NCBI RefSeq assembly: GCF_005377625.1 | Contig: NZ_CP040098.1 | Span: 3,089,279 to 3,153,278 of the forward strand | Source: Desulfoglaeba alkanexedens ALDC | GTDB taxonomy: Bacteria; Desulfobacterota; Syntrophobacteria; Syntrophobacterales; DSM-9756 | Reading direction: 5' to 3' | Length of the DNA: 64,000 nt | In this document: positions 10,895 to 12,554 of the stretch, piece by piece | Numbering within the stretch: position 1 is the stretch's first letter | How the letters are laid out: every line of letters starts with the position of its first letter | The notes under the pieces: generated by a model | The model's database searches: none | The model's input: the letters and a program-made list of their open reading frames with translations, nothing else | Told to the model about the DNA's origin: nothing | Made by a program: the position numbers and the translations under genes

Positions 10895-10947
10895 AATGAT
10901 TATTAATTATATGAATTGACAGGGAACCGTTCCGGATAATCGGAAAT

Positions 10948-11264
10948 GGGTGCGGACCTTTTAGGACGACATCCAGGGTGACCCTCTGAGGTAGACCCAG
11001 ATGGCCTTGAAGCAGCGAGCGCATCAGCTCCGTTTTCCCTCGTTCCCAAGCTCCAGCTTGGGAACGCCCTGCCCGGGAAGCTCCAGCTTCCCTCCTGCTA
11101 CAGCTGAAACGCGGTATCTTTCTGGGGAGCTCGCCAGGATCTTGAAGTGGCTTTCCCCTCGTTCCCAAGCTCTGGCTTGGAAACGGCCTAACCGAACCTG
11201 GACCTTCTGCACAGTTGTATTCCCAAGCCGGAGCTTGGGAACAAGAAGCAAAAGATCTGCACCC
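10948..11264 (-). repeat. Family 1 MITE-like element, long form
   Basis: A complete element of 317 bp. Its ends are imperfect inverted repeats: GGGTGCGGACCTTTTAG at the left and, read inward from the right, GGGTGCAGATCTTTTGC. It contains three or four palindromes of the type CCAAGCTCCAGCTTGG and no gene. The same long form occurs at 39155-39472 in opposite orientation with the same internal order. Confidence 0.8.
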
Positions 11265-11330
11265 ATTGGAATTTGAGTGGAATACCAAGCTAGCCCGCCA
11301 TAAAAAGACGTATTCCAGGAGGAGATCAAG

Positions 11331-12032
11331 ATGGCAGAAATGAAAGATGGTTGTGTTAAGCCGGCACGTGGGCCGATTATGCCCACCATTGAGCCCTCGG
11401 CCATAGCCAGGGAAACTCTATCATTAAAGGAGGTTAAGATGTTAGCAAGAGTCGGTCAGGAAGCTATTGACTTTGAAGCAAACGCTTACATCGAGGGTGT
11501 AGGTTTGCAGCCTGTCAAATTCAGCGATTACAAAGGTAAATGGATAGCCCTTTGCTTCTATCCGGGGGATTTTACTTTTGTTTGACCGACCGAATTGGCG
11601 GCGGTCGCCGCCCGCTATGACGAGCTTAAGGCACTTGGGGTAGAAGTGCTGGCCATGAGCACCGACAGCCGCTTCGTGCATAAGGTTTGGCAGGAGCAAG
11701 AGTTGTCCAGAATGGTCGAGGGTGGTGTACCGTTCCCATTGCTCGAAGATGCTGGTGGGAAGATAGGCACAATTTATGGGGTGTATGATGAAGCGGCTGG
11801 GGTAGACATTCGCGGTCGGTTCATCATTGACCCGGACTTTGTGATACGAGCGATGGAAGTGCTGACCCCTGAGGTGGGTCGGAGTCCTGAGGAGTTGATC
11901 AGGCAAATCAAAGCGTTCCAACACGTGCATGCCACAGGAGAGGTAACGCCGTCAGGCTGGCAACCGGGTCAAACCACGCTCAAGCCTGGTCCGGAGCTGG
12001 TAGGGAGAGTATGGGAGGTCTGGAAGCCCTAA
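11331..12032 (+). CDS. Selenocysteine-containing peroxiredoxin (AhpC/TSA type), UGA at 11583-11585
   Basis: Two abutting in-frame segments form one AhpC/TSA peroxiredoxin if UGA at 11583-11585 is read through. The block is FYPGDFTFV-UGA-PTELAAV, and the family motif is FTFVCPTE, so UGA sits exactly at the peroxidatic Cys. A SECIS-like hairpin (GGCGGC-GGTC-GCCGCC, 11597-11612) starts 11 bases after UGA. The rest matches the family: VLAMSTDS, FPLLEDAGGKI, RGRFIIDP, and a C-terminal GEVTPSGWQPG where typical 2-Cys members have GEVCPxGW. The resolving Cys is thus Thr, and no Cys follows the UGA, suggesting a 1-Sec mechanism. Expected role: cytosolic peroxide reduction. Start uncertain: the ATG at 11331 (AGGAGGAG upstream) and 11439 (AAAGGAGG upstream, MLARVGQEAIDF, the usual N-terminus) both have ribosome sites. 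selA/B/C are not in the window. Confidence 0.85.
11597..11612 (+). promoter_or_regulatory. Putative bacterial SECIS hairpin
   Basis: A perfect 6-bp stem GGCGGC/GCCGCC with loop GGTC; the loop begins 17 bases after the UGA. Bacterial SECIS elements are short hairpins immediately downstream of UGA, with the apical loop at about this distance and a G in the loop. The codons remain compatible with the protein (ELAAVAAR), as required for an element inside a coding region. Confidence 0.7.
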
Positions 12033-12153
12033 AGTGTGGCAAAGGCGGGCTAAGCAGAGGCTGGAGCCGACAGCGCCTTCGGTGCTTCGGCTCAGCCGCA
12101 AACCGTTGGATCTCCATGTTTCCGGAGCCTCTGTGAATGCTTGAAAAAACGAT

Positions 12154-12294
12154 GGGTGCAGATCTTTTGCTTCTTGTTCCCAAGCTGGAGCTTGGGAACG
12201 AGGGGAAACGGAGTTGATGCGCTTGCTGCTTCAAGGCCATCTGGATCTACCTCAGAGGGTCCACCCTGGGTGTCGTTCTAAAAGATCCGCACCC
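12154..12294 (+). repeat. Family 1 MITE-like element, short form
   Basis: A 141-bp element with ends GGGTGCAGATCTTTTGC and, inverted, GGGTGCGGATCTTTTAG, and one central palindrome. The short form lacks the additional palindromes of the 317-bp copies. Its right half (GATGCGCTTGCTGCTTCAAG then GCCATCTGGATCTACCTC) is shared with 15335-15474, 39155-39472 and 37357-37460. Confidence 0.8.
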
Positions 12295-12554
12295 AAAAAC
12301 GATCCTTGGAGGACTTCGTTGTCGCAAAGCCGACGACCCTCTTTTCTCGGCCGCTCTTGACTTAAAGCGATCCACTCCGGGAATTGCCGGCTCTGCACCT
12401 TCTGCCATCCGGTTAAGGTAGAGATTGGGGGACGCTGCGCGCCACGGAACGAGCGTCAGTAAGTCATCGCGCCGGGGCGCGCAAGCTCGCCCGACGTTCG
12501 ACTTCAGACGCCGCTGCGTTCGACCTGAAATGGAGTAGAAAGGAGCACACGACG
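12295..12554. other. Intergenic, decayed sequence
   Basis: About 260 bp between the short family 1 element and the YeeE/YedE gene. The left part (about 12300-12400) is a decayed relative of the dispersed sequence at 51.3 kb. The right part ends in the AAAGGAG ribosome site for the next gene. No gene seen. Confidence 0.4.

Follow-up and report, generated by a model that had tools for sequence, protein, structure and literature searches.

The window, a 64,000-nucleotide stretch of the Desulfoglaeba alkanexedens ALDC genome, contains a forward-strand gene (prxU, 11331-12032) for a selenocysteine-containing peroxiredoxin of the AhpC/Prx1 type. The reading frame ends in TAA and is open except for a single internal stop, the TGA at 11583-11585, which reads FTFV*PTELAAV (the asterisk is the TGA). 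If this TGA is read as selenocysteine (Sec), then the product has 233 amino acids, with Sec at position 85, and it matches the NCBIfam model for PrxU (NF040737) at 365.6 bits (the cut-off is 270). The match is full-length, at positions 6-232 of the 233-position model. The product also contains the PFam domains PF00578 (AhpC-TSA) and 1-cysPrx_C; the latter matches 2-Cys proteins as well. When the protein is aligned to human Prx2, Sec85 lies at the peroxidatic cysteine and Thr206 (11946-11948) lies at the resolving cysteine. The active-site motif is PxxxTxxU. The AlphaFold model of the product has a mean pLDDT of 80.9, and a fold search with residues 35-232 of the model identified the 2-Cys peroxiredoxin fold (Z of about 22 to Prx4/Prx2), which supports a peroxiredoxin fold.

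Among the two AhpC-TSA matches in this genome that we classed, prxU is the only AhpC/Prx1-type peroxiredoxin. The other is a Tpx-like protein, encoded beside a desulfoferrodoxin-like gene, and AhpC-TSA matches one further protein. Downstream of prxU, we found two Sulf_transp (YeeE/YedE-like) genes, along with a gene for a metallo-beta-lactamase/rhodanese protein. In relatives, the neighboring genes include those for flavodiiron proteins, rubrerythrins, Fur-type proteins, and desulfoferrodoxin-like proteins (these families were recognized by eye), which is in keeping with the oxygen defense of anaerobes. Inverted copies of a repeat that is rich in GTTCCCAAGCTCCAGCTTGGGAAC palindromes lie on both sides of prxU (10947-11266 and 12145-12295). 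We considered whether the repeats make prxU a mobile cassette and rejected this idea: the genome contains about 40 or more near-full copies, which are 92-96% identical and form a MITE- or REP-like family, so being flanked by two of them is weak evidence for a cassette. Elsewhere in the window, there is a cobalamin riboswitch on the reverse strand (152-334, 109 bits).

The sequence-only reading had proposed that this gene encodes a selenoprotein peroxiredoxin, as UGA occupies the catalytic position in one frame with no other damage, and indeed the only stop within the frame is at 11583-11585. All 80 of the nearest relatives that we identified in genome contigs, from many phyla (including Chloroflexota, Thermodesulfobacteriota, Zixibacteria, Actinomycetota, Bacillota, Myxococcota, and others), also have TGA at the codon for Sec85, so the in-frame TGA is not due to chance. 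More broadly, in a survey across phyla, 129 of 395 genomes encoded a member of PrxU above the cut-off, and nearly all of these have TGA. The reading would have been refuted by a genome without selABC, but this genome (one contig of 3.37 Mb) has tRNA-Sec as well as selA, selB, and selD, which scored 623, 379, and 380 bits, respectively. It is from the same family as a genome with a PrxU identical to that of Desulfacinum hydrothermale, which makes Syntrophobacteraceae probable. Because the Rfam model for tRNA-Sec matches all of the control genomes weakly, the identification of tRNA-Sec rests on the strength of the match (75 bits, which is over the cut-off) together with ARAGORN's prediction of a tRNA-SeC with the anticodon TCA. 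The selD of this genome (L018, C1:409171-410097) is itself a selenoprotein gene, with TGA in GAG*ASKIGP.

Just downstream of the UGA codon is a bacterial SECIS (bSECIS) hairpin (11597-11612), with a 6-bp stem (GGCGGC/GCCGCC) and the loop GGUC; the sequence-only reading had noticed it 11 bases past the TGA, and we found it in that place. According to published rules, the apical loop of a bSECIS has 3-9 nucleotides with a G in the first two positions, the upper stem has 4-16 bp, and the loop lies 16-37 nucleotides after the UGA (PMC13188914). The hairpin in prxU agrees with these rules, as its loop has 4 nucleotides and begins 17 nucleotides after the UGA. Among PrxU genes, the loops are mostly AGUU or GGUC, in agreement with the same rules. 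Across 123 distinct Sec-encoding genes, the bases of the stem can pair in 93.5% of cells, as compared to 85.1 ± 0.5% if codons are permuted among the sequences that share the amino acid at that site (1,000 shuffles; the best shuffle reached 86.9%). For instance, above the identical peptide LAAVAA, a single synonymous stem pair is found as G-C, A-T, T-A, and C-G. Conversely, the stem was not kept in any of 8 homologs with cysteine in place of Sec. The hairpin was not the minimum-energy fold of a 48-nucleotide piece of the window taken by itself, in which the bases near the UGA pair instead (z = -1.2). The case for the hairpin thus comes from comparing genes and not from folding energy. We expect that the bases of the rival pairing that are next to the UGA would be covered by the ribosome during decoding.

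Given the score for PrxU, the genes for Sec insertion, the TGA in 80/80 relatives, and the conserved hairpin, comparative analysis indicates that prxU is a functional selenoprotein gene from the known PrxU family, and the SECIS that had been proposed for it is borne out by the covariation. Nothing but the stop codon itself hints that the gene might be broken by a nonsense mutation or a sequencing error. With the same TGA in every one of the nearest relatives, compensatory changes in the SECIS, and the full machinery for Sec, this explanation is extremely improbable, and we consider a pseudogene or a sequencing error to be ruled out by the conserved TGA. A different PrxU gene (L126, from genome G186) has an additional in-frame TAG on the 5' side of its Sec codon (YHKG*FTNV), which could reflect an error, recoding, or decay.

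The first start codon of prxU (Met1) is an ATG that is preceded, at a distance of 8 nucleotides, by the Shine-Dalgarno sequence AGGAGG (together, 11317-11333). A Shine-Dalgarno match of at least 5 nucleotides is present at this position in 117 of the 123 genes that encode the long form. From Met1, an N-terminal extension of 36 codons (11331-11438), with the motif GCVKPARGPI, leads to the core domain. In an alignment of 36 members, Cys8 and Gly14 of the extension are invariant and Pro11 and Pro15 are nearly so, while the extension is otherwise variable. Furthermore, the extension is free of stop codons in 122/123 genes, and Pro11 and Gly14 are each encoded by all four of their codons. The lack of stop codons and the synonymous variation at the conserved cysteine, proline, and glycine residues imply that the extension is translated.

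The sequence-only reading made no mention of a second potential start within the gene, AAAGGAGGTTAAG-ATG (11426-11441), which would begin translation at Met37, where the core domain starts. At this position, 117 of the 123 long-form genes have both a Shine-Dalgarno match of at least 5 nucleotides and a start codon (ATG, GTG, or TTG), as compared to 66.1 ± 4.8 (maximum 81) in 300 synonymous randomizations that used each gene's own codons. Similarly, 106/123 genes have a match of at least 6 nucleotides (35.3 ± 4.4 expected; maximum 49). The relatives being compared are not independent. The excess persists among those that are under 85% identical (56/61 vs. 31.3 ± 3.3), under 80% identical (25/29 vs. 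13.0 ± 2.3), or under 77% identical (19/21 vs. 10.8 ± 2.0); a stricter non-redundant subset of 7 genes has no power. At other in-frame codons in these genes that resemble starts, such a Shine-Dalgarno sequence is present just 9% of the time (148/1,648). Also, wherever valine occurs in the start column, it is encoded by GTG (14/14 genes; 36% expected; p of about 7e-7). The internal Shine-Dalgarno sequence overlaps different peptides (KEV, QEV, KEE, EEV, or REV), and its GGAG(G) is shifted to a different codon frame in about 10 genes, so it is the nucleotide motif itself that is conserved.

Because a Shine-Dalgarno sequence is maintained at each of the two in-frame starts, and because the extension is free of stops and uses synonymous codons, both starts, which are 36 codons apart, look to be under selection. 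The best reading of these comparisons is that prxU is a dual-start gene that would produce a long form with a cysteine-containing tail and a short form with just the core. The internal Shine-Dalgarno sequence and ATG could instead be a relic from before the extension arose from an old 5' leader, or a site of ribosome pausing, with only the long form being made. Short relatives in the PrxU family do start at exactly the core position, with a Shine-Dalgarno match of at least 5 nucleotides in 32/34 of them. This suggests that the gene gained the extension at its 5' end, perhaps by growth over an older leader, and kept the old start. However, a relic would be expected to decay, whereas the Shine-Dalgarno sequence and start codon are kept in 117/123 genes from many phyla, well in excess of what synonymous randomization gives, and a pause site would not require that every valine be encoded by GTG. 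We therefore consider it unlikely that only the long form is made.

The sequence-only reading had noted that the canonical resolving cysteine is replaced by threonine, and Thr206 does align with the GEVCP column of Prx2. It went on to propose an enzyme with a single Sec that relies on an external thiol partner. The first part of that proposal fits the lack of the C-terminal cysteine, but the second sits less well with two other cysteines: Cys8 (11352-11354) and Cys75 (11553-11555), which is 10 residues N-terminal of Sec, are, like Sec, invariant in the 36-member alignment, and both are almost invariant across the long-form clade. The codon for Cys8 is TGT in 74 genes and TGC in 49 genes. Among 165 PrxU genes, 122 have Cys8 only, 23 have a C-terminal cysteine only (as GxEVCPA or a shifted PCGW), 3 have both, 11 have another pair of cysteines (at +111/+143), and 6 have none of these arrangements. 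Of those 6, 4 have a core with no cysteine besides Sec. Cysteine at the C-terminal resolving column was found only in other clades of PrxU and in three intermediates.

This distribution is suggestive of the resolving cysteine having moved from the C-terminus to the N-terminal tail. It is not proof, since on the tree each clade strongly tends to keep to one arrangement, with few changes, and three members carry both cysteines; and as the tree provides just 2-3 independent contrasts, we do not claim a statistical association between the loss of the C-terminal cysteine and the presence of Cys8. Nearly all members of this clade that lack the C-terminal resolving cysteine have Cys8, so an internal resolving thiol seems at least as likely as an external partner, and it is plausible that Cys8 is a relocated resolving cysteine. 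The AlphaFold model has low confidence for the extension (pLDDT of about 54 for residues 1-10), so its geometry provides no support for Cys8 reaching Sec85.

If prxU encodes a true 1-Sec peroxiredoxin that depends on external thiols, then Cys8 and Cys75 would have structural or regulatory roles. This bears only on the last step of our preferred explanation, the resolving role of Cys8. Thr206 at the resolving column and the match to 1-cysPrx_C are consistent with such an enzyme, and a paralogous subgroup of PrxU without cysteines in the core implies that Sec-only enzymes do seem to exist in the family. On the other hand, Cys8 is invariant in the 36 aligned members although the extension is otherwise variable, which speaks against this alternative. 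We give the 1-Sec alternative a substantial chance of being correct, if somewhat short of even. As for the overall reading, that prxU is a PrxU selenoprotein gene with two starts whose Cys8 is possibly the resolving cysteine, we are fairly confident in it.

We propose that SelB and Sec-tRNA would read the UGA as Sec85, and that the selenol of Sec85, in the usual peroxiredoxin active site, would reduce peroxide and be converted to a selenenic acid. From what is established for peroxiredoxins, a thiol would then resolve this acid, and thioredoxin would recycle the enzyme. The gene would yield both the long form, with Cys8 in its tail, and the short form from Met37, and the two forms may assemble together in peroxiredoxin rings. 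The least certain step is that Cys8 of the long form might do the job of the lost C-terminal cysteine by forming a selenylsulfide with oxidized Sec85, which would then be reduced by thioredoxin. Short subunits would have to rely on their neighbors or on free thiols. Equally uncertain is whether the ratio of long to short forms might tune the resolving step. The full proposal, that anaerobes from many phyla make two proteoforms of PrxU whose mix, set by translation, governs the share of Sec sites in the ring that have a tethered resolving cysteine, now in an N-terminal tail instead of at the C-terminus, is tentative, and we would lean against its being correct in every part.

As a selenoprotein, prxU is one more well-supported member of PrxU. 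Sec-containing peroxiredoxins were already known (PMC1794560, PMC13188914), and PrxU was, by the account cited in PMC13188914, first purified from Eubacterium acidaminophilum (Sohling 2001). prxU belongs to the same sequence family (NF040737) and shares with it the UGA at the peroxidatic position and the SECIS directly downstream, while the internal start and the arrangement of Cys8 and Thr206 are without description in the open-licence papers that we searched. Compared to typical 2-Cys peroxiredoxins (AhpC/Prx1, such as human Prx2), prxU has the same fold (36% identity) and the motif PxxxTxxC/U, but it has threonine instead of the C-terminal resolving cysteine, an N-terminal tail with a cysteine, and Sec instead of cysteine. 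Bacterial genes with dual starts are also known, including those for CheA-L/S, CcmM, and infB (as cited in PMC11005335). Like prxU, these have two in-frame starts that give N-terminal proteoforms, but prxU encodes a selenoprotein, and the evidence for its dual start comes from sequence comparison. We found no description of a Sec-containing peroxiredoxin with a dual start that is kept across phyla in our search of open-licence papers. What is new, then, is that a selenoprotein gene has a conserved internal start, and that a cysteine near the N-terminus may stand in for the classic resolving cysteine. If correct, this would give insight into how the peroxiredoxins of strict anaerobes recycle oxidized Sec. 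Both features are hidden when a gene caller ends the frame at UGA or picks the wrong start.

We also noticed other arrangements of cysteines in the family. The core is free of cysteine in a divergent subgroup of PrxU-like proteins (L144, L170, L172, and L174, with GGDYTFVU), and these are apparently true Sec-only peroxiredoxins, as judged from their sequences. Three of the genomes with this subgroup (G207, G230, and G367) also encode a long-form PrxU. Another clade (L133, L134, L136, L141, L143, L145, L164, L166, L171, L173, and L175) lacks both Cys8 and the C-terminal cysteine and has a conserved pair of cysteines that are 111 and 143-144 residues past the Sec or Cys, which is possibly a third resolving arrangement.
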